A stretch of 64,000 bases of DNA from NCBI GenBank assembly GCA_963922205.1, contig CAWUHX010000004.1, positions 1,054,001 to 1,118,000 on the forward strand. Reading direction: 5' to 3'. The notes beneath the pieces are model-generated. The model did no database searches. It saw nothing but the letters and a program-made list of their open reading frames with translations, and was not told the origin of the DNA. The position numbers and the translations under genes were made by a program. The DNA is from Romanomermis culicivorax. Lineage: Eukaryota > Nematoda > Enoplea > Mermithida > Mermithidae. Of the stretch, positions 15,458 through 63,690 are shown piece after piece; the first letter of the stretch is position 1, and the number at the start of each line of letters is the position of its first letter.

Positions 15458-15478
15458 ATGCCACAACCCAGTAGACTA

Positions 15479-30131: not shown

Positions 30132-30840
30132 TCACGTGATTCACATCACAATTTTTTCGTTATGTTTTTCGTTACGTTTTGTCTTACAGTAATTTGCATC
30201 AATTTTACGTTTCGTTTTTATAATTTTTACATGCAATTTATGTGTGCACTTTTCATGTTTTATTTCTGTTTCATTTGTGCACATTTTATTTCCATTTGGA
30301 TTTATTATTTTGTTATACACGTAGACTACAGTATGTACCTGCTAGTCAAGAATTTCTGTTAGAGATAAGCTCTCCAAGCTCATCGCTGTAATTGGAGCAC
30401 AACGTGCACCTCTTATCAGTAAAAACTAGCGAGGTTTCGCAACCTGAAACGACTAGTTGAAAATTCTCACTAGTTGACATTCCTATGTTAAGCATGGAGA
30501 GTGAAAACTCGCCCCAGTGCTTAATGTTGTGAACTGGAAAATGTCTATGTGATCATAGGCATCTTCTGCAACATTTTCTGCTGCAGAAGTTAGCTTGGGG
30601 GAGTGTTAACTCTGCCGAAGGCATACTGTAGTTTATGGAGCCCTTTAAAAGGGCATGTTGTATCATTTTTGTGTCTTGACTTGTCTTGTCTTCGACTTTA
30701 ATTGGTTGTTGCGTTTCAGCCTTGCGTCTCGTCTTTTGCCGTTTGTCTCCTTATTATTATTATATTTTATTGTCAACTGTGTTCACTGCTCGTCGAATAA
30801 AATTTACATATTCTCACCTCCGGCCTTCTTATACGTTACC
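30132..30840 (+). mobile_element. 5' LTR of element 2 (3' limit approximate)
   Basis: The first 330 bp are confirmed by alignment with the truncated 3' LTR. The rest (to roughly 30,840) is matched by the minus-strand copy at 19.2-19.6 kb. It contains CTGCTGCAGAAG, TTTAAAAGGGC and the polyadenylation-like CGAATAAAATTTACATATTC. The exact end cannot be set because the 3' LTR lacks this part and no clear primer-binding site was seen. Confidence 0.6.
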
Positions 30841-30849
30841 ACTACAGTA

Positions 30850-33800
30850 ACCCAACTGTAGGAAGTCATCCCCATCGCGGTTAATTGGGAACCCCTGTCG
30901 CCCTCACCGAGGAAACATTTGATACCACCGCCTACCGATCGGCAGCCGCAGTACCCCATGTCGAATCCCTCGGATTTTCGTACCCGTTCATCACCATCCA
31001 TAGGACCCCAGCACTTTGACCCCAGGACCTGTCGCTCATTGCCAAGTAGGTTAAGAAGAGGGTTAGTAAGTCTTCCCTGGGGTTATTACTGTTGGGGGTA
31101 TATTTGTGGGAGTCTCCCCTAAGCTAGTTTCCCCCGGAAGTACCCTCAGTTGAGAAAGCCCTCAGACCCTTAAGGTCAGGGCCAATTAGGGGATATAGGT
31201 TAACAATCGGGTCCCCTACAGTATGCCATTCTCCAAATGGCACCGTCCCTCATTCCCAGTGAGTGAGGACTAGGGATTGACACCCCTGACCCGGCCGCGT
31301 TGTCCATTATTCTACAGCATAACCCTAGGACAAGGCCGAGGTACACCATAGGTTTACCTGTGGGAGTACCAGCTGGGTTAGGTTCCTGAAACGAAGAACA
31401 TTACTGGAGCCACCCCAGGGGGTCACAGCATGTCACCTACTGTGTCATGGCCATATTTCCTATGGGATATGGTACGGGTTTTTCCCGTCAATGTGACTGA
31501 TCACCCACTTCATTTAATGTGACATGGCTCCACTTCATTTAATGTGACATGGCGAGGCTGGAAAATCGACCTTTAAGTCTGACTTCACAGTCCTTAGGAA
31601 CGAACCTTTTGCCCTTTTGAGTGAGATACCTCTTTCAATTAGGTAAAATTTTAGTTCGAGTGGGGAAACCTCTCTCAGATCATGAGAATCGCCACTTGAG
31701 TGGGGTAACCTCTCTCAGGTCTGTTGATTCGCATTCAAAGTGGGATTACTGACCCTTAGGATGAAAATTTATGCCCTCATGTAAGCCGATACATCAGTAA
31801 GAAGGTACACTACCCCTTAGGTCAGAATAGGCCCTTATGTTCGAGTTTAACGCCAACTCAGATAGCACTGCATTTGAGTAGAGTTTAATTACTCTAGGTC
31901 GGGATTTGCCCCACGTGTGATTAAATTAATGATTCTTGCGTGTAACTTAATGCCTTATGAGTATAGTAATGCCCGTAAGCTTTGTCAGGTTTTCCCCAGA
32001 GTTGGTTCTCAAGACACATAAATTCCCAGAGTCGAGTAAATAGAGTATTCTGCCATAAATCTTTTCTGAGCTTCATTTTTTTCCATTTTCTTTTTCCATT
32101 AATTGGGCTCCACCCACTGTGTGTGATCGGATAGGTTACTTTACCGCCATATGGCTATTTAGTTACAGTACGACTGCCATTTGCATGTACTCTAACTACA
32201 GTACACCTGGGTACGGGTACTTGAGTATCACAGCCCATGAGGTTTTCACAGCCCCTGAGAGTTTCAGGATCTCCGATCATGAGGTACAGTACACCTTCCA
32301 CTCTTGATTCTGGACGTCAAGTGTGGTAGTGATTTGTTATCTGTGTCCAGTATGTGTGTCAACACACTTTTTCAAACTTTTTCTTATCTTCACTGAGCAC
32401 TAGCCAAGTTGGTCATTTTCCGGCCAAACAAGCCAAAATTTTACCGTTGACACATATAACACCCTACTTAGCAGATCACATCGCTTATCTTTTGGGCCTC
32501 AAATTTTATTTTATTTACTTTACTTTTTATTTTCTCAGTCTTCTATGCGTAACGTGTGACCCAATTATCATAACTTTTTCACCCAATAAATTTTCTTATC
32601 TCAAAAATCAACTCAAATAAAAACTAATAACCCATTTTTTCTCCTTTTTTTCTAAACAAACAAATTAAAATTTATCCTTTCTTTCTCTTTCCTACCAAAG
32701 ACAAATAATAAAAACATTCCCTTTTCACTTCTATTCAAATTTATCAAAAAAAAAACTTTCTCTTTTACCAGTCACACATAGGTCATAGTTGGCAACCATT
32801 CAGTAGGTCATTTTTATTATTTTTTCCACTACTGTACGGTCTTCTCCTTCTTTTCTCTCTCTAGGAGGTTGCACGTGCTGACGATCTTACCGATCATGAC
32901 CCCTGACATCAGCAACAACTACAATAGTGGTGTTGTTATGAGGTGATGTGTCTTGGCGACCCTCCCTCTGACGTCCGCAACTACCTCACATGCTGCTGTT
33001 GCACTGAGGCATGACTAGTAGGGTCAAGCCTCTGACGTCAGCAATAGCTGCATAGCATGTGGCCATTTAAGGGGTTGATGGTTCTCTGTGTCCTCCCCCT
33101 GCATCTGCAACAGCTGCATCCCTTGCTGTTGCTTTAAGGGGTGGGTGGCCCTCCGGCTCTACCTCTGACGTCAGCAATGGCAAAGTAACGGGTTGTTATT
33201 GCGGGATGGTGACCGTATGGCACTGTCTTTCTGATGTCTGCAACAGCAGAGTCTCGTGTTGATGCACGAGGAATGGTCGGTTATTCCGGCTTCAGTCTTT
33301 GACGTCAGCAACAACAATTCACCGTATTGTTGTTTGTAGATGTGAGGCTTTACAAACTGCACATCTGGCGTCTGCAACAACTGCGTCTCATATCATTGTT
33401 GTAGGATAACTGAGACTCAGCTATTACCTTTTGATGTCAGCAACGGCGATGCTCCATGTTGTCGTAGCAGGGTTGCTGGTCTGGGGCCCTATCTACTGAT
33501 GTCCACAATGATAAGTCTCTATTCCAGTATCCGAATTAAGACTTTACAGTCTTATTCTGGCGTCAGCAACGGCGATGCTCCGTATTGCCGTAAGAAGTCT
33601 GTAGCCGTAGGCTCATACTTTTTGGCGTACATACTGCAATATGAGATTTTGGCACCTACATCCCAGTTGCCTGAGGTCAGCACCGAGTGTGTGGTGGTGT
33701 ATATCACATCTTTTGACTTCAGCACCGGGTTACTGCGGGTTTCCAAGATGCCGCTTGAGTCTTAGGTGATGATTGGCGTATTACCGTCTCACCTACAGCT

Positions 33801-35250
33801 CTTGTCTAAGGGTTGTGTCTGTGTGTCACTGGTGCCTGGGAAACATCAGTTGACATTCTCACTCAACTTGAGATACACTCGGTCTGTGATACTGATAAGT
33901 TTGTCCGCCAGGGTAGCGGCACTGATGGATCAGCATGTGACTACCTTTCTAAGCTTTAACTGCAGGTTCGAACGGGTTTACACTCGGCCTCAGCTGGGTT
34001 GGTTGTTCAACATACGTAACTGTTAGGCATTTGCAGTCGGTACTGCCTGTGTCTAACAATCCCAAGGGTTGACAAATTCTCACATTTCTTTCTCATCTAT
34101 GATCTTCTTTAGTGTCCCCACCAGAATAATCCCTCAGGAATTAGGGCACAGCCACTGGTTGGGCCTAAAGTGTAAAAGGCCCCCCTGTAATCATTTCTTT
34201 ACACTCAAACCCCTTCATCAGCTGGCCTAATAATGTCCGCACTAGAGTCACCCTGAATCCTGAGTCCGCATCCGTTGGTTTGTCCCTTAGCATAATATGC
34301 CGCTAGTCTGCCTAAGCGAAGGTGTTCGAGTCGGCCTAAACACATTACAACTAAGTCCCCCTTAGCCCCTCACTTTACACTCATTTATTCGAGACAGACT
34401 GTACCCCTTATCTCAAGATGCCTTGAGTCTAGCCTCGATTCATAGGAGGAAGCCTGCATTTCCCCACCTCCATTTAGGCACAGCTGGGCCAAGGACCCCC
34501 ATGCCACCCATTTACTGACTGAGTGTGTCAGAATAGCACCTCAGTACTTGGTGCTCTTTATCTCCAACTGGTGACCTGCGATCCTCACTTCATCTCAGTG
34601 ATTCGAAACCCAGCCCCCAGCTGTATATAATACTCCTGGAGAGTTCCCGTTCTGTTCAAGGCGCGCATTTCCCTTTTGGGCACGGTTGAAGACTATATGC
34701 GAATGACATCCCCTCGGGATCCTCCTGTCTAGTCATCACACTTTTCAGAGTTCGCACTTGCTCCTAGTGAGTGGGGCTGATTGCGTAATAGCGCATCCCC
34801 TTTGCGTAATCTGGTGTGTAAACTAATTTTGTCCCTATCTATTTACACCCATTAAGTTTACTTTAAGTTGTCCCCCTTTACTTATTAATTCTTAAGCTAC
34901 TTCATGCGCTACTCCTGGTGAGTAGGACTTTGTCGGTTACGAGCCCTCCCATATCCAAAAATTGTAAACTAGCACAACGGATTTAACCTCCAAATAAAAT
35001 TCCCTTTTGAGCGGGTTTATCCGTACGTCCTCACATCGTCCTTTCTTTTATGGTTGGGAAACCACCATTTTTATTCAAATTTATTTACTTTTGGTTCAAA
35101 TAACTGGGTCTAGCCCCATTAATTTCTAAAGTCTCTGTATAACTTTCCCTTTCTTTACACTCGGGTTATCCCCTCTCTAAGTACATAGGTGACCAGATAA
35201 ATTCCCTTCTGAGTCAACCTATCTTACCTTCTGGCCATTCTGAGAGCTAA
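30850..35250 (+). other. Element 2 leader without reading frames
   Basis: About 4.4 kb separate the LTR from the first recognisable coding sequence. The same text is present, inverted, at 15.5-19.2 kb, so it belongs to the family and is not copy-specific junk. It contains repeated phrases such as GTGGGGAAACCTCTCTCAGA (31.66-31.72 kb), a duplicated CACTTCATTTAATGTGACAT near 31,510-31,550, and the hairpin array at 32.87-33.74 kb. No Gag could be found. The last 150 bp may be decayed envelope. It may represent a heavily decayed gag-env region or a genuine long untranslated leader. Confidence 0.6.
32870..33740 (+). repeat. Tandem TGACGTCA-hairpin array of element 2
   Basis: About eleven units with a spacing near 65 bp. 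Each starts with a variant of CTGACGTCAGCAAC and continues into a short stem of the form GCAACNGC...GCTGTTGC, for example GCAACAGCTGCATC...GCTGTTGC near 33,110. Two more copies, TTGACGTCAGCAACTCC and TTGACGTCAGCAATTCC, occur near the 3' end of the element (40,551-40,610). The unit combines an ATF/CREB-type palindrome with a hairpin. Its role could be transcriptional or RNA-structural. Confidence 0.75.
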
Positions 35251-35254
35251 AACC

Positions 35255-35677
35255 TTGAGTTTTGCTTTCTTCAAACAATACGTTTACAAGACTGAGCAAA
35301 TTGAAGTGGTCTATAACGGGTTGGTAAATTATACTGCTGGTCTATCCCTACAACCAGATACTATTTATCAAGCTGTTGCAGGGGTAGGGACTGACATCAA
35401 AGCCTCAATGGAAGGTGTTGGTCTGGCAGCAAACCATGTGATTACTGGTCAGCAGCACAACCTCATACAGGGCTTACAGTCTCTTTTGAGTCGACCAGTG
35501 CAGTTGATCTTTAACACACTAGTCACCCTGGCAGTGCTGACCAGTACAGGATTTCTCATCTACATTGGGATCTCCTATTACCTCAGTTACTGCCTGTGGA
35601 AAAGACAGGTTTGGTTTGTTAGCCAATACTCTCTGTTGAACCTCCTCCGGAAAGTTCAGCATTGGGTAGGTTTTCAC
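35255..35677 (+). pseudogene. env: Element 2 envelope-like C-terminal remnant
   Basis: A frame of about 140 codons starts in the style FFKQYVYKTEQIEVVYNGLV and matches element 3 near 47,080-47,400 position by position: NYTAGLSL, SDTVY/PDTIYQAV, GxGxD/A, HVITGQQ and the final membrane segment LIFNTLVTLAVLTSTGFLIY. Upstream the match fades into stop-rich sequence. Two stops (35,678 and 35,684) separate it from the next domain in the same frame. It marks the envelope module as lying upstream of protease in this lineage too. Confidence 0.75.
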
Positions 35678-35692
35678 TAGGCGTAGAACAAT

Positions 35693-36355
35693 GTGCCAAC
35701 TCAGTTAGACAGGATCACTCCGTGTTTTGTCGTACTGGTTGACCACAAGGAAACTCCTGCTTTCCTTGACACTGGTTGTCCACGGACCATCATTAGTCAA
35801 CGCCTTCACAAAGCCTTGATTAAAGAAAGTCGGAAGGTGGCGATGGCTTTCCAGCAACATCATGACTTTAACCCATTAATGAGTATCAATCAGAAAGCTG
35901 TCCATACTCTCCTATCGGGACCGTATGAGATCATGTTGCCTGGAACCCGTCAGCCACACACTAGAGTGGATATACATCTCCATGTGTGTAAGACTACATC
36001 TCCTTTCTGGGCACCAGTCGATCTGATTCTCCGATTGGACTTTCTAGAACAATTCCAGCATATCACGTTTGATTACCAACAGCACATCTGTTGGTTGAAT
36101 GTGGTAGAACTGCCACTTCTTCTGACAGTGGCTGAGATGGTTCAAATCGAACCCTGTTGGGAGAACACACGTTCACTATCAAGGGCCTCCCACAGGTCCG
36201 GGTCCCGATCCAGATCAAGGACTTCGTCCCTTTCTCAGCCACCCTCGCGAGCTTCCTCAGTTGCCTCATCCCGTGGGTCAACCAGAGGTAGCCGGACCTC
36301 TTCTAGATGGGCCAGCGGTCTTTTTATGACCAGGTCAGGGTCAAACCGCCCTTGA
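35693..36355 (+). pseudogene. Element 2 first retropepsin-like domain plus RS-rich linker
   Basis: The frame shows FVVLVDHKETPAFLDTGCPRTIIS, with the catalytic D-T-G, and about 100 residues later VDLILRLDFLEQF, resembling the second conserved retropepsin stretch (ILGxxFL). This is followed by a Ser/Arg-rich segment (SRASHRSGSRSRSRTSS and on). A second, canonical protease lies 350 bp further, so two aspartic protease-like domains occur in tandem. The first shows no close relative in element 3. It ends at a TGA (36,353), and the frame continues beyond it. Confidence 0.65.
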
Positions 36356-36445
36356 CCCTGGCCTAGAGCTTCTACAGTTACACTAGAGAGAGGCGGTTTT
36401 TGTGAGCCTAGTGATTCTGATGCACTTGCCTCCCCTGTACTAGAG

Positions 36446-37675
36446 GTGCCACCACTCTCTGACGCTGAGGTCGAATCATTAGGAGCTACTCAGAGCTCAG
36501 GAGAACGATCGGATCATGTACTTACTGTTCAGGTTCATCCCACTCCTGGGACCAATCCGGGAGCCTTGGTTGGTTATGCTCTGGTAGGATTACTCCGACG
36601 CACTGGTTTGCCAATACCGAGGCGAACCAATGCGCCAAAGTCGAGTTTTGATGACTCCATGCCTGACCCAGGTCATGTAGTGTCAGCTTTCTACCCTACT
36701 GAAATGAGAACCCCTCATATCAGAGTTCTACTGAACAATTGGGTGGAGGCCAAAGCTCTAATTGATACAGGAGCAGTTTTCTCGCTCCTGGATCACAAGT
36801 TAGCGGTTCAGTTACCCCACTTGGTACTCACAGAGACTAGGGCTCGCCCCATAGCAGCCAATGGGTCTCGGATTCTACTGCTAGGCGCTGCCTATGTCAC
36901 GGTGACAGTGGCTGATGTCTCTGAACTGATTCAGGTCCAAGTTCAAGAGAATTGTTTGGCTGAACTAGTCTTGGGGACAAACTTCCTCGGACAGTTCAAT
37001 TGTGTCAGCTTGAACTGGGAGAAATCCTTTCTTCAGTTCAAGGAACTTCCAGTTCTGTGTGAGGGCCTCATTCACAATCCTCCTTCCACTCGTGGGGCAC
37101 TACCCTTGCAGGAGTTGATTGTCCTTGGGCCTCGCTCGTTGACACAATTTACTGCGCCTGTACCTGCATTATACGCAACTGTACCCGAGGTAGCTTTCTT
37201 TCCTAAGCCTCTTTTGGGACAACAACACAGTGTGTACTTTGCTGGTACTGTGAGTACTGTGACTAATGGTCGCATACCCCTACAGGTAGTTAACCCCAGT
37301 ACACACTCAATGGTTCTCTACCCGCACACAACCATCGGTCATGTGCAGATGCACACTGATTCCTCACAGGGATCGGCGGTCAAGTCTGATACCATTCTTG
37401 ACCGTAAGTGGGTTGAAGCAAATGCTGTGATATCTTCAGATATCTCCTCACAGGATAAAATGGCGTTGCTCGACCTACTGGTCCCATTCACTGACCTCTA
37501 TGCTATTGAAGAAAAGGACACAGGTTCCACTGACCTCGTGCACCACGACATCAGCACCGGTGATGCTTGCCCAGTCTGCTGTTTCCCTTACGGCACCACG
37601 CCCAAGAAAAAGGATCTCATCAGTCATCATACAAGAAGTCAAAGCGCTCCAGGAAAAAGGCATTATTCAGCTTAG
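36446..37675 (+). pseudogene. Element 2 second (canonical) retropepsin and linker
   Basis: The protease motif ALIDTGAVFSLLD (about 36,757) and LAELVLGTNFLGQF (about 36,960) match element 3 (GMIDTGAVYSLID, ADILLGKNFLSRF). A shared post-protease linker follows (RSLTQFTAPVP..., PKPLLGQQHSVYFA). The domain would cleave the polyprotein as a homodimer. The frame overlaps that of the RT (from 37,500) and is abandoned near 37,600, which shows a frameshift between protease and RT. Confidence 0.75.
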
Positions 37676-38850
37676 TACCTCACCCTGGGCAACTAATACC
37701 ATCCTGGTTCACAAGAAAAATGGGTCACACCGGATGTGTGTTGACTTTTGTGGTCTTAACGAGGTCACGAAAAAGGATGTTTATCCTCTCCCACAGATTG
37801 ATGATATCCTCGACACACTCAAGGGTATGAAATACTTTACTACCCTTGATCAGGCTAACGCCTACTGGTCTATACCTATTGCCGAGGCAGACAAGGAGAA
37901 AATGGCGTTTAACACGCCTATTGGACTTTACAAGTTCAACTATCTGCCTTTTGGTCTTTGCAATGCACCTGGGACGTTTCAACGTCTTATGGACGTGCTT
38001 CTCACAGGACTGCAGTGGCGCACGGCACTGACCTATCTCCATGACATCTTGGTGTTCGGGAACTCTCACACCCAGATGCTTGAGCCCCTGAGGGATGTGT
38101 TTACCCGTCTCCGTCAGGGAGGGATGAAGCTCAGACTGAGCAAGTGCAAGTTTTTGCACTCTGAGGTAGAATATCTAGGGTACAGTATCCCACAGAACGG
38201 ACTAGAGCGGGATAAAGTCAAATTGGCTGCCGTCCAGGATCTACCCATCCTACAGAACGCCAAGGACATCAAGTCATTTCTTGGTCTCGTGTCTTACTAT
38301 AGGCATTTTATCCCTGGTTGCGCCCAGCTCAGCGAGCGGCTGACCAAGCTCGTATGGAAGAAAGTTACCTTCCTGTGGTCAAAACCTCAGCAAGCGGCAT
38401 TCGACGAACCCTGAAGGCTGTTGATGAACCCTCCTGTTCTGGGCCATCTGGACCTCACGAAATCCTTCATACTTCAAACTGATGCAAGTATTTCGGGGAT
38501 AGGAGCACTTCTAAGCCAGTTGGATGATAATGGATAGGACCATCCTCTTGCATACGCCAGTAGAGGGTTAACAGCAGCTGAGAAGAACTACACTATTATG
38601 GAGTTGGAGACTCTCCCTGTTGTCCATTTTGTCAAGCACTTTTGGCCTTACCTCTTTCAACATGTGGTGGTCCTCCAGACTGATCATACGGCTGTTAAGG
38701 CTGTGTTGGAGAAACCTAACTCTTCAGCTCAGATAGCTCGGTGGGGCCTCGCATTAGCTGAATTCAAACTGACAATTCCGCCGCAAAAAGGTCGGTCTAA
38801 TGGTAATGCTGACGCATTAATACACCTTCCTGATCCTAATTCCCTTGTCG
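37590..38850 (+). pseudogene. pol: Element 2 reverse transcriptase and RNase H, inactivated
   Basis: The Ty3/gypsy RT signature blocks are clear: VKALQEKGIIQLSTSPWATN, YPLPQIDDILDTL, FTTLDQANAYWSIPI, YLPFGLCNAPGTFQRLM. The catalytic box reads YLHD where YLDD is expected, so an essential Asp is lost. RNase H follows (FILQTDASISGIGALL, LETLPVVHFVKHF, TDHTAVKAVL, NGNADALIHLPD). In-frame stops occur at 38,412 and 38,535. It is unable to copy RNA as read. Confidence 0.85.
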
Positions 38851-39115
38851 GGGAGAGTATCGACAATACTCGCCTGTACAGACCTGAGGGAGAAATTATA
38901 ATGATTGCCGATGGTGTGCAGCATCTGGCGAGATCATCCCAAAGGACCACCCATGGTGCCCAGCGCCTGGCGAGGTCTGAGTCTTATGCTGAGATATCAG
39001 AGGATGCGCAGCACCATAATCTTCTCACAGCTCAATTTGAGGATCTAGAACTAGCCTCCATTCTTAGCCACTCAAACCCTACGGTGATCAGAAAGATGTT
39101 AATGGCTACCACCTG

Positions 39116-40279
39116 TTGGATAACATCCTTCAGAAGTGGACAGGCGAGTCCAACAAGATTGTTATTCCCCGCAGGTACCACTGGCCTTCCCTCAGTGCCG
39201 ATGTCAAATCCTTTTGTCAGCGGTGTGATCTTTACCAATGGAATAAGCCCGCGAGACAAAAGACCCGTGCAACTCTGAAACCGATTACCATTACTGGGCC
39301 GTTTCATCAAGTTGGTGTCCACTGTATGGGACCAATGACCACTAGTGAAAGTGGAAACCATTTTATTGTAGTCTTCATAGACTACTTTACTAAATGGGTC
39401 GAAGCTTTCGCTACTCCGGACATTACTGCGCAAACCATAGCACAACTTTTTGTTACACAAATTGTCTGTAGACATGGGGCACCACAGATTCTTCAGTCTG
39501 ATCCTGGTACTGATTTCACGTCCAAATTGATGACTGAAATCACTGCCATTTGTTCAACTAGAAAAATCCACTCCACCGCTTATCACCCAATGGCAAATGG
39601 AGAAGTGGAAAGAGCTAATCAAACGCTAGCTACACGGCTACGTATGTATGTCCACCAAGGTCATACTGATTGGGATGAACACCTGCCATATTCTGTGTTC
39701 GCTGTCAACATTAGCATGAATGAGTCCACAGGATATTCACCCTTTGAGCTCATGTATGGTGGTACGCCCATGCTACCTGTTGGTGCAGTACTCTCACTCA
39801 ACCCTCCATCCCATATCATAGATGTTTCTACTTATGATATGGAGGTCAAATGGCATCTCACAAATGCCTTGACCTTGATCCAGAGCCAAATCGAGAGATC
39901 ACAGGCGGCTCATGCTAGGTCATACGACCGCATGGCACGAGATGTCTCATACAAAATTGGGGATCAGGTGCTCAAACTGCGCACCACCAGCAATCGTGGC
40001 CTAACGCCTAAATTGCTGCCTATTTATGATGGGCCCTACTTTGTAACAAATTTGGCATATCCCAATGTCACCATTCGACTTGAGACTGACCAAGAAGATA
40101 CTGTGCATGTCAATCAGCACAGACGCTACGTGTCACCTGCTCAGTCTATTGAACCAGAGGAGGTACCTTCCACTTCACAGGTCATCAAGATGGTACCATT
40201 GTTGATTCCATCAACAAACCGAGATTTTACACAAGATCTCATTGACCTACATCTTGATGCAGAGGTCTCCGACCCCTAA
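39116..40279 (+). pseudogene. pol: Element 2 integrase
   Basis: The frame opens just after a frame change near 39,110 that removes part of the N-terminal HHCC zinc domain (only CQRCDLYQ is left). The core has FHQVGVHCMGPM, where the first catalytic Asp is replaced by His; QSDPGTDF with the second Asp; and NGEVERANQTL with the catalytic Glu. The C-terminal GPY-type module (PKLLPIYDGPYFVTNL) is typical of Ty3/gypsy integrases. A 3' untranslated part of about 490 bp with two TGACGTCA repeats follows before the LTR. Confidence 0.8.
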
Positions 40280-42631: not shown

Positions 42632-42801
42632 AATATTGGAACATCGAGAAACTTTGGGCGTCTTTTTTCTTCAAATCAGAATTTTTTCCCTTAGTTACTA
42701 AACGTGTTCTTGTTCCAATTGGCACATATCCCATTATTTTGTTTGCAATTGCATCCATGTACTGCGAATTTTTGACAGAACGGTTCAGTTTTGTAATCAT
42801 T

Positions 42802-43686
42802 TGTAACGTACCTGCTAAAGCAGTACTGTAAATATGTAGCATATTGTATGTAATAGGCATTTATTAGATATTATTTTTTTTTCGCATTTTACTGTCTCAA
42901 GGGTGTCTGGGATTCACACCCAAACATTCCTACAAAATTACGTGAAGTACTTTATTTTGATCCATTCACACCCCGGTAGCCCAATTAAGACGCCCTAATT
43001 AATTTGCACAAACGGCAGCTGTTCCCCTAGAACCTACACTAAACTACACATTCCACAGCTACCGTAATCCCCCGTAAAAAATCGTAAACAACACCTGCAC
43101 ACAGTAAAATATGTAGAAGCCCCGCCGTACAGTAGTCTCAAGTGTAACGGTAGCGGCAGCCCCACAAAACGTGTGTATACAGAGAAACCGATACAGGAAG
43201 CATGCACAGAAGCACAAAGGTGTGGCCAAGCCCACCGTAGAAAGCAAGTGAAGCACAGAAAGCATACGGTACCAGAAAAGCGTTAGAGAGGCGTAACTAA
43301 GAAAGCATAAAAAGCGTAGCCGGAAACAACGATTGGCGGAAGAAGATGGACAGAAGCTCGACCTCCCGCGACGCCCAGAGAGTGGCCAAAATCGCCGTAT
43401 AAAAGAAGAAGCAAGGCGTGATTTGATCATTCTTATTCTTGTATCGTTTAATTTTTCGACCCCGCGCCCGTATTTGCAAGCATTGTTTTGAGAGCGAGTC
43501 TCATTTTATTCGGAAGCAATTAAGCCGTGTATACTCGCCGCGTTATCGTATCATTGTCGTATCGACGTCTGAAGCAGCCGTCGAGTATTGTAAAGCCGCA
43601 TATTATCGCCCCCGTCCCGTATTTGTCCCGGCAGTATCGACCGATTGGTTAGAAGTAAAGTACCTCACACAAATCTGGTCGTTACA
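42802..43686 (+). mobile_element. 5' LTR of element 3
   Basis: Starts TGTAACGTACCTGC and ends CTGGTCGTTACA. It includes TATAAAAGAAGAAGC (about 43,398), a likely TATA box, followed about 30 bp later by TTCTTATTCTTGTATCG, a probable transcription start region. It lies 3' of the F-box/LRR copy A pseudogene, in the same orientation. Confidence 0.95.
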
Positions 43687-43691
43687 TATTT

Positions 43692-43709
43692 TGGTGACCG
43701 TACCATTAC
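43692..43709 (+). promoter_or_regulatory. Primer-binding site of element 3
   Basis: TGGTGACCG begins five bases after the 5' LTR. TGG pairs with the universal CCA tRNA tail. The same nine bases follow the LTR of element 1, which suggests a shared primer tRNA class. The tRNA identity is not assigned. Confidence 0.75.
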
Positions 43710-43929
43710 GTTAACCAGTGGAACTCCCTGCCCCCAGTTAGGTGTACTCTTATCCAGGCATTTAGAAGCATTAGATAATACAGTAGTAATCATTTCCTAC
43801 AGTAAGGCAGTATTAGTAGAAAGCAAACTGGAAATCCCCTCCAACGAGACATTAAGCGATACATTTAAACGAATACAGCGTGAAGCAAAAATTGAAGCAT
43901 TTAAGCAGAAATCCCATCGTAAACCAAGA

Positions 43930-46900
43930 ATGACCCACCAAACGCAAGATCATTTAGGAGAAATCGTTAGAGAACAGATAAACGATTTGTTTTCAGAACG
44001 TTTTCGTACCCTACGCACACAATTGAACCAGAATACAGTAAACCCTACCCTAATAGACGATTTAAGAACAGCAAACATTCGTAATAACATGGCAAACAAT
44101 TTCTACGCGAAACCTACAGTATTCACGGGCGGCGTGACCCAACATTTTGGTGAATGGAACAAAAGATTAGAACAATTCATGGCACTCCAAGGCATGAAAG
44201 ATACAGACGTACAGTTAAAGTTGGCATGTTTAGAAATTCATTTAGGAGGAGCCGCGTTAGCAAAATTCAAAAGTTTAGCAAATTCCGAAAACCCTCCCCA
44301 CACATATGAGCAGTATAAAGTCGCATTACAGGCATTTTTCCCAAACAATAGAGATAATGAGTTACATCAACAATTCTTACGCGAAAGAAAACAAAAGCGA
44401 TCAGAAACAGTAACGGAATTCTTATTTGATCTAGAACATCTCGCAACCCTCGCCTACCCTAACTTTAACACAGACGCACGAGAAATGATCATAAAACCCC
44501 TCTTTGTAGAAGGCATGCAAAACGAAATCAGGGAAGCAATTAAGTATAGAAGGTTTGCAACTCTAAAAGAAATGTCAGACGAAGCAGCTTACATTGAACA
44601 GCAAATTCTTAGAAATGAGTTAAAGTCTAACGCCCTTCCCTTCATACCCCCAAAACCCGAACCCATCTTTTCCCTCACCAAAAACACAGACCAACAGGAT
44701 CTTTTGCATCAGTTAGAACAACAAGTAAAAGATTTACAGTTACAGATCAAACAAAAACCTCAACCCCCACAACAGAGTAGCTACAACAATTTCAGTAACA
44801 ATACTTTCAGCAGGAATAATGCTTACAGGAACAACACCACCCCTAGGCAACCCACATGCTTCCAGTGTGGACAAATCGGACACGTAGCTCATAATTGTAA
44901 ATCAGTAGGCACCCGAAAATCATGTGAAATCTGTTTCCGTAATAATCACAGTACACGTGATTGTAAAAGCCGATGCATCCACTGTTCCCAAACAGGACAT
45001 AGATCAGATAACTGCCTTTCAAAACCCTACTCCAATTTCCAATGTTTTATATGCAAGCAGAGAGGTCATACAAGCAGGTATTGCCCAAATCAGCAGAGTC
45101 GTAATATTCAAAATTGCATTGAGTACAGGCAACCCCAACCCCTCATGGACATTGACGACCCCGCATTTTACTCAAAATTACCCGCCATAACTAATGGCCC
45201 TCAGACTACTTTAGGAACTATCATGCCCAACACCCACCGCCGTAGCGACGAATACCTCCTTGATCTGGACGTACCCGATTGGTGCGCCATGTCACCACCC
45301 CCCACGCCTGAAGCCGTAAAAATCGAAAAATCGCCGCCCACCATCCCCGTAGGCTACAAGATCCCCCGAAAGCAAGACACAACGCCGCCCACCACCCCCG
45401 AAACCCCGTCCAAAACAGGCCGCAACTTGTTATCCCTTCTCCATCGCCTGACCCCCGAACCCTACCAATTCCGCCCCCGCCAAACACTTCTACCGACCCC
45501 CATAAGTAAGCAAGTCCAAACCCCATCCCATAACTCAATTTCTAAAGTTTTACAGACCGTTCAGATTTCAAACCGGCCACCCCCCCAGCGCAAAACCGCA
45601 AAACGACAACACCAAAAACCGCCACGCCAAATCGAGCAGAGCGAAAAAACACAGTACCCTGCCGCCTCCACTAAAACACTACATTGGCCATTGTATTGTA
45701 TATTTTTATGTATAATAATCCCCACATCGTGTAGTGCCCAATTTCAGATGTGTGGAACTTCATTGAGCGGTCACTCAGTCAGCATACCAAAACTTGTATC
45801 ATGCATGCCCCCTTCCACAGTAGACAAACCCGTACAAACATTCGGAAAAATCTATATCCCCTCCACTAAGCCCCACATTACAGACGCATACAAATGCAGT
45901 GTTCGCAAACGCAAAATTTGTACTAATACAGGATTTTTTGGATCAAAAGGTATTGTCTTCGACAAAACTGAAATGCAAAATCTAACCCCACATGTTTGTA
46001 AGGCAATCGTTATAGACAAAGAACACAACGGTCAAAAATTATACGAAACCCAACCAGGATTTTGGTCAACAAATAACTCCCTAAGCGTAGAATACACATG
46101 GTGTTGTACAGACCATTGTACCTCGGTCACTAACGTCATCATAGAAATAGGACAAATAGCATCTTGGAATGGAAAATCTATGACAGGTACATTAGGTGAC
46201 CTGGGGTCATGCAAACCGACATCAGGTCATTGTGTCACAGCCGACGGATCTATTATCTGGAATGAAACAGCATTTGAAAACTTATGCCCTTTCGAATACA
46301 AAAACACACATCCCATCAAACTCACACAAACCCACATGATAATAGAAGAGCTACAAGGTGCATTCTCAGTTAAAAATACAGTTTTTTCGAACCCCAATTG
46401 CCCAGAAATCCAAGACAGCATTCTAACCGAACAAGGCATTATTGTACAATTAGACAAAAGCACACCACATCGTAACGCATTTTTAACCCCAAAAACCAAC
46501 AAAACTCATCCTACACTATACGATTTTGATGATTTTGAACCCATCAATGCAAAACTAAACTATCTAGCAGACAAAATACAGGAATTCGAAATTCAAAATT
46601 TCAAAAATGTATGGAATGAACTATGCAGACAGGCGCAGCGTCACCTTGATCTCGTATGGCAAATTCTACGTCTTGATGCAACCCTTGGAGCGCGTGCATT
46701 CCTACAGAGAACCGACATCATAGCAGAATTTACAGGAGAAGCCCTCACAGTCTGGCCCTGCAAGCAGGTAAACGCATCCAAAGTCTTTTACAACCATAAA
46801 ATCAACCAAACATGCTACAAACTCTTACCCATTCTAGTAGGAACCGAACTCATGTTTTCAAATCCAGGAGGCAACGATTTGACCCCTTTCTCACAAACCG

Positions 46901-49900
46901 TTGACTGCCATCACATGCATGTAGCCCTTTACAAACAGAATAATACATGGGTCAGTGAAACAGGATCCCCGCATGTCACAAATTTACCTTTAGAAATCGT
47001 CTGGAACCAAAATTTCTCCCTTTTTCATTTTAATACACCCGCCATTTTTCATGATCAACTTGCAACTATTTCAACCAACTTACTCTTTTTGAAACAATAC
47101 ATTTACAAAACTCACACACTCGAAAACATTGTCAAAAAACTCGTCAATTACACCGCCCAAATGTCTCTCAATTCCGACACAGTTTACAACATGATCTCAG
47201 GCACTGGCCAAGCACTCGGAAATACACTCTCTGGCGCCGGTCAAGGCATAGAACATGTAATAACCAGTACCACCCAAAGTCTCACGGACGGATTAAACAA
47301 TTTACTCAAAGGACCCCTGCAAATCATTATCAATCTCGCCGTTATTACTGTAGTTATTGCAGGCGTCTTTTATTCATTTCTCGTTCTTCGAAAATATCTC
47401 CCCTCTCCAAAGCATCATGCCACAAACGAACATGCATACGAAATACCATCAAACAACAGACATTTACATGAGACCATTCCCCCATCATTCGGCCATGCTC
47501 TCTTAGAATTAGCTAATCGTCGTGGGGCACAAACGCAGCAGAAATACGTCCTTGTCGATATTGATACCCCCCGAACTCCTGCAATCGAACTCATTAATCA
47601 AATTCACCAATCTGCATCAAATAAGCCACCCCAAAACGTACCTGAGAAACATACCCCTCATATTCCAATCACACTTAACGGCAAATTAATGACAAAAGGC
47701 ATGATTGACACTGGTGCAGTTTACTCACTCATTGATTCCCGAATAGCTCAAATCCTACAGTTAGACATGAAACCCCCGCTAGTCCAAGCAAAAGCAGCAA
47801 ATAATCTTCCGATTCACTCTGTAGGGACCACTTTTGTCACAGTGACAGCCCAAACAATCCAGGAAACGATAATGGTTCATGTCCAAAAAGATTGCACAGC
47901 AGACATCCTTCTAGGCAAAAACTTTCTCAGTCGATTTTCGGAATACACTATCAACAATCAAAAATCACAGGTCAAATTTGGCAATGTTATACTACCTTGT
48001 GATGGCCTAGAATATAGCCCTCTTTCAACTCTTGGTGGAACTTATTTGGATGAAAAATTAGAATTACCACCCCGTACAGTAACCGAATTTACTGTCCCCT
48101 TGCCCAAGTCGTACTTACAGGTCAAACAGCTTGAATTCACCCCGAAACCCAAACAGAACTCTAAAGTCCATTTCGCAGCTTGTATATCTGAGAATCAACA
48201 CGGTCGCATACGCATATCGGTCCTAAACACACAAGAAACAGCCCAAATTCTTTACCCTGGAACATGCATTGGTACAGTCTCCTGTTACATCCCCAAACAA
48301 AATACTCCCGGTAACATAACCCCTTCCACGCAAAACCAGCCCAACCGTTTTGATACATTCACATGGTTAAAAGAAAACGTTAATTTAACCTCCAGTGACC
48401 TGACAGAAACAGAAAAAATGCAACTCCTACGCGCCCTATCGAAATATCCCACATTATATGCTAAATCCAAAATGGACGTAGGTAGAACCACCCTTGTTTC
48501 ACATACAATTGACACCAATGGCTCCCAACCCGTACGTAGACAACTTTATCGGACGTCCCCAAAAGAAAAGCAAATCATACAAGCAGAAGTTGAGCAACTC
48601 GCAGCAGCAGGTGTCATAAGCCAAAGCAATTCCCCATGGTGTACCAACACAGTTTTAGTCCCCAAAAAAGATGGAGGCCATCGTTTATGCATTGATTTTC
48701 GAGGCCTCAACAAAGTCACAAAAAAAGATACCTACCCCTTGCCCCGGATAGACGAAATTCTAGACACCCTCCGTGGAATGAAATATTTCACATCCCTTGA
48801 CCAATCCAATGCATATTATTCCATTCCCATAGCACAAGCAGACAGAGAAAAAACGGCCTTTAATTGCTCAGCCGGCCAGTATCAATTCAATTACCTCCCC
48901 TTTGGACTCACCAATGCCCCAGCCACCTTCCAAAGGTTAATGGATGTTATTCTTTCGGGTCTGCAATGGAACACATGCCTTGTGTATCTCGACGATGTTT
49001 TGGTATTCGCAGACTCCCATGCCCAAATGCTGGAACATTTAGACACTATTCTTGCCCGATTCTCACAAGCAGGCCTTAAGCTAAACATACAAAAATGCAA
49101 ATTCTGCCAGCCCCAAGTCCAATACTTAGGCCACGTCATTTCTCAGCAAGGCATTTCACCAGACCCCCATAAGGTACAGGCCATTTATGACATACCCACG
49201 CCCAAAAGCTCAAAAGAAGTTAAGTCATTCCTTGGCCTACCCTCGTATTATCGCAGATTCATCCCAAATTGCTCTCAAGTTTCTAGCCCACTCACATCGC
49301 TACTCAAAAAGAATTCCGAATTTTCCTGGGGCCCCGAACAGCAAAACGCATTCACTAAACTCAAAGAATTACTCATCCATGCCCCAATACTGCAGCACCC
49401 CGATTTCACCAAACCATTTATTCTGCAAACTGACGCCTCAAAACTCGGAATCGGCGCCATTCTCAGCCAGCTGGATAGTAAAGGTCAGGATCGCCCCATT
49501 GCTTTTGGGAGCCGCACATTGAAACCCGCAGAACGCAACTATCCGATCACTGAGTTAGAAACCCTTGCAGTAGTCGAATTTGTCAAGTATTTCCGCCCCT
49601 ATCTTTTCCAGCAACATGTTATCGTACACACTGACCACACAGCAGTTCAAGCAGTCTTACAGAAGGAAAACCCGTCCCCTCGCATTGCCCGTTGGGGATT
49701 AGCCCTCTCCGGTATTCAGCTAGACATTCGACCCAAGAAAGGCACTGCTAACTGCAACGCAGATGCCGTTTCTCGATTCCCCTCACAAACAGCAAAGCAA
49801 TCCTTTGATATTGAGCAATTAGAAACCTGCCCCGAAATATCAACCATCAATTCAGTTTTGGAAGCCGAAGCAACTGAACAAGAAGAGCAACAGAAAAACT

Positions 49901-51158
49901 TTGCCGAACTCCAACGCACTGACCCAACTATCAAAAGTATTTTAGCAAAAATCGCCCGAAAACACCCCCTTACCCTTATCAAATTTGCAGTGCATCAAAA
50001 CATTCTCTTCCGTATAGTCGACAAACAGGCAAAACTATACATTCCCAAGTCCCAAGTCCAGCATCTCATCGCCTCACATCATGACAGCAAGTTCACAGGC
50101 CATTTTGCGGCCAGGAAAACTTTACACTTGCTCAGACAGAAATATTTTTGGCCCCAAATGAGCCGGGATATCAAACGTTACTGCAAAACTTGTCACCCAT
50201 GCCAGACACAGAAAGCCCTCCGACACAAAGTACATGCAAACTTGGTACCAATTCAGCCAACTGGCCCATTTGATCGAGTTGGTGTTGATTGCATGGGACC
50301 GTTACCCCTCACTGAAGACGGCAACCGCTTCATTGTCGTTTTCATCGATTATTTCACAAAGTATTAGAGGCATTCCCGACCCCTGACATCACTGCAGCCA
50401 CTATTGCCAAGCTATTCGTAACCAAAATTGTTTGCCGTCATGGGTCCCCAAAAATCATCCATTGCGATCGTGGCACCGATTTTGTATCCGATCTTTTCTC
50501 ACGGATCACCAGTTTATGTAATACTCAGAAAATTCACACTACCCCATATCATCCCATTGCCAATGGGGAAGTTGAGCGTTGCAACCAAACCCTAGCCACC
50601 CGTATCCGCATGTACATCAATTCAAATCACACTGATTGGGATACTTATCTCCCATATGCTGTTTTTTCGATCAACATTCATAAAAATGATAGCACTTCGT
50701 ATCCCCCATTTGAATTACTTCACGGTAGGCAAGCTAATCTGCCGTCAGATGCAGCTTTAAATTTTTTCCCCACGTCCTACATGGTTGATTTAGATGATTA
50801 CGCCCTTCGTGTAAAATCGCACTTTACAGAAGCACTCTCAACCATGCAGAAAAGTTTGCAAAAAGCCCAAGCCCACTACACCCGTCAGTATAACAAGCAT
50901 GCTCAGAACATACATTACAAGGCAGGTGATCTTATTCTCTACAAAAATCATTTGTGTAAACAAGGGCTGACTCCCAAATTCCTCCCTCGCCAAAACGGAC
51001 CCTATACAGTCACACATTTCATGTACCCCAACGTTACACTCAAACACCCCCATAAGAATATTACATTTACGGTGCATGTAAATGAGACAACCCCCTTCTA
51101 CCCTCCGAAAGCAACTATCGAATCTACCCCCACCCTTCCTCAACCTCGAAAGCCTTGA
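43930..51158 (+). CDS. Element 3 gag-env-pro-pol polyprotein (one frameshift)
   Basis: The first in-frame ATG after the primer site is 43,930, though the frame is open from 43,645. Approximate residues from that ATG: Gag capsid-like region 60-230; four CCHC zinc knuckles 310-385 (first CFQCGQIGHVAHNC); Pro-rich linker; hydrophobic signal-like segment 585-605; Cys-rich, glycosylation-sequon-rich ectodomain to about 1,130; membrane segment 1,131-1,157; retropepsin (IDTGAVYSL) near 1,260; RT with YLDD at 1,686; RNase H (LQTDASKLG) near 1,835; integrase HHCC near 2,050 and first catalytic Asp (GVDCMGP) at 2,120. A stop at 50,365 results from a single-base frameshift near 50,361. Beyond it the frame continues with the remaining catalytic Asp (50,466) and Glu (50,568) and a GPY module to 51,158. 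Everything except this break looks intact. Confidence 0.9.
45681..47400 (+). other. env: Envelope-like glycoprotein module within the element 3 frame
   Basis: The module lies in frame between the Gag zinc knuckles and the protease. It opens with a hydrophobic stretch (YCIFLCIIIPTSCSA) that resembles a signal peptide with a cleavage-like site. The ectodomain has many cysteines, including a CCTDHC cluster, a GHCVTADGSIIW phrase, and sequons such as NETA, NASK, NQTC, NNTW and NFSL. The section from WNELCRQAQRH (about 46,612) through ARAFLQRTDI to GEALTVWPC (about 46,735) has the layout of class III fusion proteins, the group that includes herpesvirus gB and chuvirus-type glycoproteins; that likeness is my inference. 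A C-terminal membrane anchor (INLAVITVVIAGVFYSFLVL) follows a Gly/Ser-rich helical stalk. Confidence 0.75.
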
Positions 51159-51176
51159 ACGAGGACGTTCAACTCC

Positions 51177-51189
51177 GGAAGGAGGGAAA
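51177..51189 (+). promoter_or_regulatory. Polypurine tract of element 3
   Basis: GGAAGGAGGGAAA directly precedes the 3' LTR (TGTAACG at 51,190). A purine run in this place primes plus-strand DNA synthesis in LTR retroelements. Confidence 0.9.
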
Positions 51190-52074
51190 TGTAACGTACC
51201 TGCTAAAGCAGTACTGTAAATATGTAGCATACTGTATGTAATAGGCATTTATTAGATATTATTTTATTTTCGCATTTTACTGTCTCAAGGGTGTCTGGGA
51301 TTCACACCCAAACATTCCTACAAAATTACGTGAAGTACTTTATTTTGATCTGTTCACACCCCGGTAGCCCAATTAAGACGCCCTAATTAATTTGCACAAA
51401 CGGCAGCTGTTCCCCTAGAACCTACACTAAACTACACATTCCACAGCTACCGTAATCCCCCGTAAAAAATCGTAAACAACACCTGCACACAGTAAAATAT
51501 GTAGAAGCCCCGCCGTACAGTAGTCTCAAGTGTAACGGTAGCGGCGGCCCCACAAAACGTGTGTATACAGAGAAACCGATACAGGAAGCATGCACAGAAG
51601 CACAAAGGTGTGGCCAAGCCCACCGTAGAAAGCAAGTGAAGCACAGAAAGCATTCGGTACCAGAAAAGCGTTAGAGAGGCGTAACTAAGAAAGCATAAAA
51701 AGCGTAGCCGGAAACGACGATTGGCGGAAGAAGATGGACAGAAGCTCGACCTCCCGCGACGCCCAGGGAGTGGCCAAAATCGCCGTATAAAAGAAGAAGC
51801 AAGGCGTGATTTGATCATTCTTATTCTTGTATCGTTTAATTTTTCGACCCCGCGCCCGTATTTGCAAGCATTGTTTTGAGAGCGAGTCTCATTTTATTCG
51901 GAAGCAATTAAGCCGTGTATACTCGCCGCGTTATCGTATCATTGTCGTATCGACGTCTGAAGCAGCCGTCGAGTATTGTAAAGCCGCATATTATCGCCCC
52001 CGTCCCGTATTTGTCCCGGCAGTATCGACCGATTGGTTAGAAGTAAAGTACCTCACACAAATCTGGTCGTTACA
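51190..52074 (+). mobile_element. 3' LTR of element 3
   Basis: Same length as the 5' LTR. The mismatches seen are GCATACTG/GCATATTG, TTTTATTTT/TTTTTTTTT, GATCTG/GATCCA (two), GGCGGCC/GGCAGCC, GCATTCGG/GCATACGG, AACGACG/AACAACG and CCAGGGAG/CCAGAGAG. It is followed by CATT, the right target duplication. Confidence 0.95.
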
Positions 52075-52078
52075 CATT

Positions 52079-61242: not shown

Positions 61243-62765
61243 ATGGACGACGTCGTCGTTATTATGGAAATCTTAAAATATTTCAACTTCCAAGAATTAT
61301 GCATAGCGGAGCGAATAAATCCAAATTTCAAAAGTTGTGTCGAATGGGAATTGCATCGGTTAAAATATGTCGATTTTGATCGAATATTTACTGGTTCCTG
61401 GATAAAAGTTATAAACAAAATTGAAGCGTGTTGCTTGGGCCTGCGTCATTTAAAAAATTTCAGCGGGGGTGACGTCTTTCGTGGTTAAGAAAAGGTGCTT
61501 GGATTCGCCTGATCCACTTATAGAAGAGGATTTTAAGAAAAATTTCTTTATCCTTCTTCGTAGTTTAGGAAAACTGACATGTTTGGAAATTGATTCAAGT
61601 TTTATTAAAATATTCGGCTGGAAAAGTGCATTGACTTTCGTGGAAAATTCTCACAATTTGAAGCAACTTGGTGTTGCTATGGACGCAGATGAAATATCCA
61701 ACAATGAACTACGAGAGAAAATAAATAAAGTTGTTATTGGCCATTCCGCCTTGACGAAATTAATAGTTGCTCAACGTTACGATTTATGGGTTGATTCATC
61801 ATCGTGTCGAAATTTGACTGATTTCACACTGACATTATATGGAACAATGAACTTTCCTAAATATGAACAATTGTATGCATTGCTGGATGTCAATCTGAAC
61901 TTAGAAAGTATGGATATTTTTATAGCATCACACAAAAATGTTCAGCTGATCGAAAAGTTGATGAGGTTGCCAAAATTGAAAAGTTTGTCTTTACATATTT
62001 CCACTGGCGATTCGNNNNNNNNNNNNNNNNNNNNNNNNNNNNNNNNNNNNNNNNNNNNNNNNNNNNNNNNNNNNNNNNNNNNNNNNNNNNNNNNNNNNNN
62101 NNNNNNNNNNNNNNAACTGCCCAGAAGTAACATGAACTACGATGTATTGCCTGTCATTCACCTGTCATGTGCATCATTACTACAATTTGCATATTTTTAA
62201 CTGCTAAAAAACCTGGATCCTGTTTTTTTAATCTGAGTCGATCGTTGAAGGTGGTAAACTTGAACTGTTTTTTAATTCTTAAATTTTTTTCAGTCTGTCT
62301 TGGTCAGCAAAGGCTACTGCAGCTTTGAAAATGATGCGGTCCATCTCTTCAGTGGAAGGTATAGATTTATACGCTATTAATTCTGCTTCCCCAGGATCGT
62401 TCGACCTCATTTTGGATCAATGTCCAAATTTACGTTATTTTTCCGTCGACATCCTGAATGCCGAACAAATCCGGAAATTGCCCCTTAAAGCGCCCAACTT
62501 GCAATATTTCCTAATAGACGACTGTTCAAGGAGGGACTTATCCCTAATCAAAGACGCATTAACATACACAGTTCAAAATTTGCCAAATTTACATCAATTA
62601 TTCATTCCTGAGGTGCTGTATGATTTATTGGTAAGACTCGAGACGATCAAACGTTTGTCTAGGCAAAAAAGATTATCGATCATTACCGGCTGGCATTACC
62701 GTTTTCCAGACGACTTGATCAATGAATGGATTCATCTTTGCTGCCAAGGAAACCCGTCCACCTAA
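61243..62765 (+). CDS. F-box/LRR-like gene copy B (best preserved, with gap)
   Basis: Exon 1 starts MDDVVVIMEILKYFNF at 61,243, an F-box-like N-terminus, then leucine-rich stretches (LTCLEIDSSF, NLTDFTLTLY, LPKLKSLSLHI). A single extra base in a GGGGG run near 61,464 shifts the frame relative to copy A; this may be a sequencing error or a real lesion. The 100-N gap (62,015-62,114) removes the end of exon 1. Exon 2 runs from an acceptor AAATTTTTTTCAG (ending 62,293) to TAA at 62,763-62,765: GIDLYAINSAS, CPNLRYFSVDIL, APNLQYFLI, NLPNLHQLFIP, FPDDLINEWIHLCCQ. Family role would be an SCF ubiquitin-ligase substrate adaptor, inferred from layout only. Confidence 0.7.
62015..62114. other. Assembly gap (100 N)
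   Basis: Exactly 100 unknown bases, the conventional size for a gap of unestimated length. It falls in exon 1 or intron 1 of copy B. Confidence 0.98.
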
Positions 62766-62919
62766 AATATTGGAACATGGAGAAACTTTGGGCATCTTTT
62801 TGCTTTAAATCAGAATTTTTTCCCTTAGTTAGTTGTTGTTCCGATTGGCATATGTCCCATTATTTTGTTTGCAATTGCATCAATGTACTGCGAATTTTCC
62901 ACCGAACTTTTCTATTTTT

Positions 62920-63690
62920 TAATCATTTTCACAAAAAAACTTTCTTAAAATGCAAAAATGTTCTCAAAAAATTGTAGTTAAACCTGGAAAAGTAGAGGTT
63001 TCCTGCTATGATTTCCTGTCTTTTCTTCATCTTCACAAAAACAAGATTACATTTTTGAAAAGTAAAAATTTTATTATTATTTGTATGTCAAATTGAGAGA
63101 AATAGGAATTTCTTGCCAAAAATTTCAATCGTTTCTATAAAGGAAGCCGAAAGATTTTTTCAGAATGCGAAAAATTTTCCATAATTTTTTACTAAAATTC
63201 GGAAAAATCGTAATTTATTTGTGTATACTTCCAGTATTTTGATGTTTTTATGCAGAAAAACCAGGAAAATTTTATCGAGATGCGAAAATTTTTTCCTGAT
63301 TTTGGCGTAAATTGACAGAAATCGCAATTTTTTTGCAAAATTTCCATCATTTCTGTTGAAAAAACTTGGAAAACTTCGTCAAAATACAATAAATTTCTCA
63401 TAAATTTGAAAATAAATTTGGAAAAAATGCGCAAACTATTGCTATATTTTCCATTAGGCTGGAAAAGTTCTCTAAAATGCTAAAAAAATTCTATCAGTTT
63501 TGAAGTAAAATTGGAAAAAGGTAGCCAGTTGCTGCTTTAATTTTCTGTTTTTCAATAATTTTTACAACAAAAACCGGAAAACATTTTTAAAATGCAGAAT
63601 TATTTGATAATTTCCATCTAAAATTGAGAGAAATAGCAATATTGTTATAATTTTCAATAATCGTTTCTATCAAGTAGAATTGAGCATTTT
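62920..63690 (+). repeat. AT-rich degenerate tandem array 3' of copy B
   Basis: Paralogue of 52,079-53,100, with AAAACTTTCTTAAAATGC, TTTTTTCAGAATGCGAAAAATTTT and AATCGCAATTTTTTTGC in matching order. Its start, AATCATTTTCACAAAAAAAC, is the uninterrupted version of the site into which element 3 inserted beside copy A. Confidence 0.75.

Follow-up and report, generated by a model that had tools for sequence, protein, structure and literature searches.

An LTR retroelement with a predicted class III Env encoded in frame between Gag and protease in a nematode genome

Retroviruses are described as carrying their genes in the order gag-pol-env, with Env produced from a spliced RNA, and in errantiviruses and gypsy the env gene, which encodes a class I F-type protein, lies after pol. 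Here we describe a long terminal repeat (LTR) retroelement in a 64,000-nucleotide stretch of the Romanomermis culicivorax genome (contig CAWUHX010000004.1; the whole stretch is referred to as the window) in which a predicted membrane glycoprotein is encoded in frame between Gag and the protease. Errantiviruses and gypsy are env-bearing Ty3/gypsy elements, as this one probably is, but their env is presented as a separate open reading frame (ORF) in the cited account (PMC6431247), and the env-like genes of Roo, Tas, and Cer-7 are placed downstream of pol in a description of mosquito elements (PMC7642597). The window element does not have this layout, as its env sits between gag and protease. The initial annotation presented this order as a departure from the usual one; it is indeed rare, but a precedent exists in the planarian element Burro, whose in-frame env between gag and pol is called the first case in its description (PMC6431247).

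Gene order and copies of the element

On the forward strand, a single frame stays open from 43594 until it meets a stop at 50365-50367; the first ATG in it is at 43930. Read in pieces, it encodes Gag, a signal-like segment, a glycoprotein, a membrane anchor, an aspartyl protease, reverse transcriptase (RT), RNase H, and the integrase H2C2 domain, in that order; the region between the signal-like segment and the anchor is a Cys-rich domain carrying sequons. The frame and the order of the Pfam matches bear out the arrangement gag-env-protease-pol in one frame that had been read from the sequence initially. The stop falls within the integrase core, which resumes in another frame, open from 50316 to 51155; therefore the window copy contains one frameshift, as had been proposed. 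The two LTRs show 8 differences in 885 bp (Kimura two-parameter distance 0.0091), in agreement with the annotated identity of about 99 percent (the BLAST alignment over-ran by 5 bases, giving 890 bp and 98.99%). The annotated 4-bp target duplication and polypurine tract were also recovered. The annotated span, 43930-51158, holds for the coding part, whereas the whole element is longer at both ends. Its features are as follows.

42802-52074, + strand: whole LTR element (9.3 kb)
42798-42801, no strand: target site duplication CATT, 5' side
42802-43686, + strand: 5' LTR (TG...CA), 885 bp
43692-43709, + strand: candidate primer binding site (TGGTGACC...), from sequence
43930-45084, + strand: Gag, with a capsid-like domain and four CCHC zinc knuckles (knuckles at 44857-45084), from Pfam and motif positions
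45085-45678, + strand: proline-rich in-frame linker, nucleocapsid to Env
45679-45738, + strand: signal-peptide-like segment, likely cleavage after CSA, by eye and hydropathy
45739-47310, + strand: Env ectodomain, predicted class III fusogen (gB-like), from Pfam, models, and fold matches
47311-47400, + strand: membrane anchor, a hydrophobic segment followed by RKYL
47401-47664, + strand: in-frame linker, anchor to protease
47665-47934, + strand: retropepsin-type aspartyl protease (Pfam gag-asp_proteas, 1.4e-8)
48523-49710, + strand: RT and RNase H, RT start approximate (Pfam RVT_1, RT_RNaseH, RT_RNaseH_2)
50041-50367, + strand: integrase zinc-binding domain, start of the core, and end of the frame (Pfam Integrase_H2C2, 2.2e-21)
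50316-51158, + strand: remaining integrase in the other frame (frameshift in the window copy)
51177-51189, + strand: polypurine tract, adjoining the 3' LTR
51190-52074, + strand: 3' LTR
52075-52078, no strand: target site duplication CATT, 3' side

The Gag of the window element matches Retrotrans_gag (1.5e-6, 28.8 bits against a Pfam cut-off of 24.1) and zf-CCHC (23.3 bits, cut-off 20.8), and thus has the Retrotrans_gag-type Gag with CCHC knuckles of Ty3/gypsy elements; Ty3_capsid stays under its cut-off in the window and exceeds it in one related family (L090). The protease-RT-RNase H-integrase order, TG..CA LTRs, polypurine tract, and short target duplication are all present and do not distinguish the element from BEL/Pao. 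Our RT tree has 122 rows without a named reference set; P0029, among the listed pol relatives, is named as belonging to the Ty3-gypsy subclass.

We searched the same genome (359 Mb in 595 contigs) for further copies. The C-terminal half of Env was found at 111 scored places, 110 of which are stop-free and 63 of which lie within frames that stay open for 2,400 codons or more; a query spanning the knuckles, linker, signal segment, and start of the ectodomain matched over its full length at all 104 scored places (96 stop-free). Both counts cover the best of >3,400 candidates, and env-less copies could escape such searches. The knuckles, Env, and the protease motif share one open frame in 25 of 40 loci (about 4.1-4.3 kb around env), and the open frames of the window's family mostly reach up to about 2,600 codons. 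Copies were also picked by LTR DNA, with 40 of 2,819 candidate LTR places scored and 11 unpaired LTR matches left out. Besides the window copy there are 11 long copies with paired LTRs; Env is where it should be in each of them, 7 have a stop-free Env C half, and their LTR pairs diverge by 0.001 to 0.015. In three short LTR-paired copies gag and env are retained (env partial in one) but pol is mostly or wholly gone, the sequences at the deletion breaks overlapping by 4-9 bp. None of these 14 copies is env-less. The element has recently spread and has a high copy number. At one locus (G000 C26 1366932-1384599), two tandem elements have the middle LTR in common, the three LTRs being spaced at 8,391-bp steps.

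The gene order recurs in other families of the same genome, whose Env proteins are 44-58% identical to that of the window element and whose open frames measure 2,471, 3,018, and 3,100 codons. All three such families examined by Pfam have gag, Env, and protease in that order, with the capsid match below cut-off in two. One search of a protein collection returned six long proteins with a related Env, and the protease follows Env in all four in which Pfam detects a protease. Two of the proteins, P0056 (2,338 residues) and P0128 (2,294), are single chains of gag-Env-protease-RT-RNase H-integrase with 40-42% pol identity. The order is not due to chance, because other copies and families repeat it. 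An assembly artefact or a one-off env insertion into a normal element would account for an odd order in a single copy, but the 104 contiguous junctions in the genome and the related polyproteins from other sources refute this explanation, and we give it practically no weight.

The Env module and its conservation

The Env of the window element matches PF24664 at 46498-47037 (E 2.4e-19, 69.2 bits, cut-off 27). Its structural models and fold matches predict a gB-like multidomain fold with a long central helix, at moderate model confidence (pLDDT 68, pTM 0.42). They support a class III fusogen ectodomain rather than an extended Gag as the nature of the modelled region, so the comparison of these two by structure prediction that the initial annotation had proposed came out in favour of a membrane glycoprotein. 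The motifs GFFGS and WCC, picked by eye, are candidate fusion loops, and the signal peptide was called by eye and hydropathy. Env has no sequence match among solved structures (E up to 10). Among named Env proteins, P0006 of Romanomermis culicivorax, a mermithid nematode, is the nearest (53% over 46% of the query); the best match of P0006 within the window's genome is 80%. As to the host, a COX1 copy can be read free of stops with the invertebrate mitochondrial code. Keturi virus gave the best viral fold match, but the source table places it under Chrysoviridae, and it was not used as evidence on the env donor.

In comparing copies, we treated shared changes as mostly inherited through transposing copies and singletons as mostly later decay, with a neutral expectation of about 2.5-2.8 nonsynonymous changes per synonymous change. 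For the C half of Env in 12 sequences (11 LTR-picked copies and the window), synonymous:nonsynonymous counts were 48:9 for shared changes and 48:55 for singletons (one-sided Fisher p 1.8e-6); in this and the following comparisons, sites and copies are not fully independent, and indel-bearing copies may add false singletons. The other regions were compared in 29 copies picked by protein, one of 30 loci having been dropped as it contains N. Shared changes versus singletons were 25:8 and 43:108 in the N-terminal part of Env (p 6e-7), 28:7 and 11:18 in the post-anchor linker (p 0.0007), 27:2 and 28:15 in the protease (p 0.005), 40:46 and 78:169 in the linker before the signal segment (p 0.01), and 10:10 and 32:89 in the knuckle region (p 0.03). 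In this set the C half of Env gave 89:11 and 54:18, a comparison biased by picking on Env protein. A pN/pS of 0.03 from copies chosen by Env protein score was likewise set aside as biased; the LTR-picked copies give 0.126. Env looks to be translated and kept, and the linkers likewise, though more weakly. The claim that this order was very likely functional gains support from the purifying selection on Env. The window copy itself carries a broken integrase, but other loci in the genome have long open frames.

A captured glycoprotein might serve inside the cell, in membrane targeting or in blocking related viruses, rather than in entry into new cells, and a study of mosquito genomes suggested an antiviral role for the solo chuvirus-type glycoproteins that they contain (PMC7642597). 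We consider this role quite unlikely here, since the class III module, anchor, and cysteines are conserved across families and Env is selected in the source copies.

Expression of Env

It is probable, in our view, that a Ty3/gypsy-type LTR element acquired a class III fusion glycoprotein from the chuvirus/mononegavirus/herpes-gB sphere and has kept it inside a single polyprotein. Unspliced RNA would then most likely be translated into Gag-Env-Pro-Pol. Gag would be synthesized in the cytosol, after which the internal signal peptide would send the ribosome to the endoplasmic reticulum (ER) and the Env ectodomain would enter the lumen. Signal peptidase would cut the Env N-terminus free from Gag; the anchor would act as a stop-transfer sequence, and Pro-Pol would be translated on the cytosolic side, joined to Env as its tail until released by the protease. 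Particles would presumably form and enter cells. Flavivirus and alphavirus polyproteins work by this logic.

Alternatively, Env could come from a subgenomic RNA produced by splicing, the way ordinary retroviruses make it, and its in-frame position would be an accident of the capture site. Splicing is the usual route for env in the cited account (PMC10309623), leaders contain donor-like sites (two related families have CTGGTGAGTA before gag), and the window has acceptor-like sites 5' of the signal peptide. Three observations support the polyprotein and make spliced Env unlikely. The linkers in three families are 222, 237, and 453 residues long, all in frame, so that they vary in length and yet preserve the frame, and linker sites are constrained. 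Two of eight elements (P0010 and P0011) contain no Met in frame ahead of the signal segment. Finally, a simple consensus scan found no donor-acceptor pair around env common to the scanned families. In-frame Mets precede that segment in the other six elements, a point in favour of spliced Env. In two families other than the window's, a weak hydrophobic segment in the knuckles-signal interval had been considered as a second glycoprotein; the stretch turned out to be a low-complexity Pro/Arg-rich linker, and the idea was rejected. On the same ground the L090 family was not counted among those lacking this Met.

Several points weigh against the polyprotein reading, in addition to the moderate model confidence, the signal peptide call by eye, and the possible escape of env-less copies mentioned above. 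A separate start for Env is conceivable in the six elements with in-frame Mets. A polyprotein yields equal numbers of Gag, Env, and Pol, which is unusual for particle assembly. Placing the env label on the quick RT tree, where seven rows carry Env, requires five changes, at least two of them forced by strong branches, and therefore env was lost or gained more than once; the rows scored as Env-lacking may include truncated frames, which would be false losses. Lastly, the metagenomic relative P0016, which is among the nearest in RT (RT 63%, gag 34%), has no Env match and about 310 residues from gag to protease, in a single frame from gag to pol. Two hydrophobic segments lie in this interval (residues 354-665), which perhaps reflects an in-frame loss of the ectodomain. 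The check for full-length copies lacking env, suggested at the outset, came out in favour of the initial reading within the copies covered: the 14 other LTR-paired copies all hold env (one partly). Outside this genome, P0016 lacks a recognisable env.

P0016, without an Env match yet in one frame from gag to pol, also favours a model that treats env as a retained intron in frame with its flanks: the RNA would give Gag-Pro-Pol when spliced and Gag-Env-Pro-Pol when unspliced, with splicing setting the ratio. This would require env to be open and in frame on both sides, as found, and would remove the stoichiometry problem. However, no precise removal of env was seen: the three short copies with overlaps at their breaks lost pol and keep env (two whole, one in part), and the simple scan detected no conserved splice pair. 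We judge the chances of this model to be slim.

If Env is part of the polyprotein, a further and more tentative proposal is that these elements represent a retrovirus lineage in several invertebrate hosts with a flavivirus/alphavirus-like Env polyprotein. The chain would cross the ER membrane twice, the protease and polymerase would stay attached to Env at its cytosolic tail, and Env rather than a Gag-Pol fusion might possibly bring the enzymes into particles.

Neighbouring loci and comparison with known systems

The window contains a second element of this type, a decayed copy belonging to the 3,018-codon family.

35255-40279, + strand: Env C-terminus and anchor, protease, RT, and integrase, in the same order

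Within the window, neither its gag nor the N-terminal part of its Env was found. Between the Env anchor and RT (35693-37675) it has two DTG-bearing stretches. Searched against Pfam with E up to 0.01, the first of them (35693-36352) matches no family; L089, an intact relative, has a clear protease in its second DTG stretch but not in its first. The extra stretch is possibly a duplicated protease or another DTG domain. Inverted repeats of ~4.2 kb with 81-84% identity lie at 15473-19619 and 30372-34812, the second located 5' of the decayed element. A further retroelement remnant occupies 12374-15457 on the + strand, with a weak gag-asp_proteas match (1e-4, below cut-off), and a tRNA-SeC (tca) was predicted at 8836-8906 by ARAGORN (Rfam tRNA, 43.7 bits). 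The repeat hosting the main insertion has a diverged second copy without the element at about 62272-63670 (75-81% identity).

Among nematode LTR elements, Cer1 of C. elegans is placed in Ty3/gypsy. Like the window element, it has no stop between gag and pol, and it has three CCHC fingers; in its description no Env is recognised, and pol is followed by an ORF that forms part of the RNA-export factor CERV (PMC10309623). Atlas virus of hookworm (PMC9094657), too, is a retrovirus-like element of a nematode that has captured a fusogen from a virus, but its Env is described as related to phenuivirus Gn-Gc, of class II. Capture of a chuvirus-type glycoprotein by an LTR element is known from Anakin of mosquitoes. 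Anakin, however, belongs to BEL/Pao, and a figure legend puts its glycoprotein last (PMC7642597), whereas the window element has a Ty3/gypsy-type Gag and Env upstream of the protease. In insects, chuvirus-type glycoproteins are reported beside Gypsy and BEL-Pao fragments; those bordered by simple repeats include two relics from nematodes (PMC10084718).

The closest organization is that of Burro and GYPSM1, planarian giant gypsy elements described with env in frame between gag and protease in one polyprotein (PMC6431247); no second report of an env so placed turned up in the literature searched. These exceed 30 kb, with an ORF1 of 4,873-5,140 residues and additional BCL2, BIR, MATH, ankyrin, and dUTPase domains (PMC6431247); Pfam detected none of these extra domains in the window pieces scanned. 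The Burro Env was matched to gypsy Env, said to be homologous to baculovirus, retrovirus, and paramyxovirus fusion proteins, with matches to fusion glycoproteins of arthropod and fish mononegaviruses (PMC6431247). By that description, the window element is set apart from Burro by its 9.3-kb size and its class III (gB-like) fusogen.

In the open-licence literature searched, we found no report that combines a class III Env with an in-frame position between gag and protease in compact elements that form several young families; an in-frame env and a chuvirus-type glycoprotein are each known from other LTR elements. A compact, recently multiplied group with a class III fusogen in the Gag-Pol frame, under selection, is an exception to the gag-pol-env layout and is present in many copies in an animal genome. 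Such a group makes it testable how Env is produced, how protein ratios are set, and how enzymes are packaged, and it extends the range of fusogens known from a place in the frame between gag and pol to the class III (gB/chuvirus) type.
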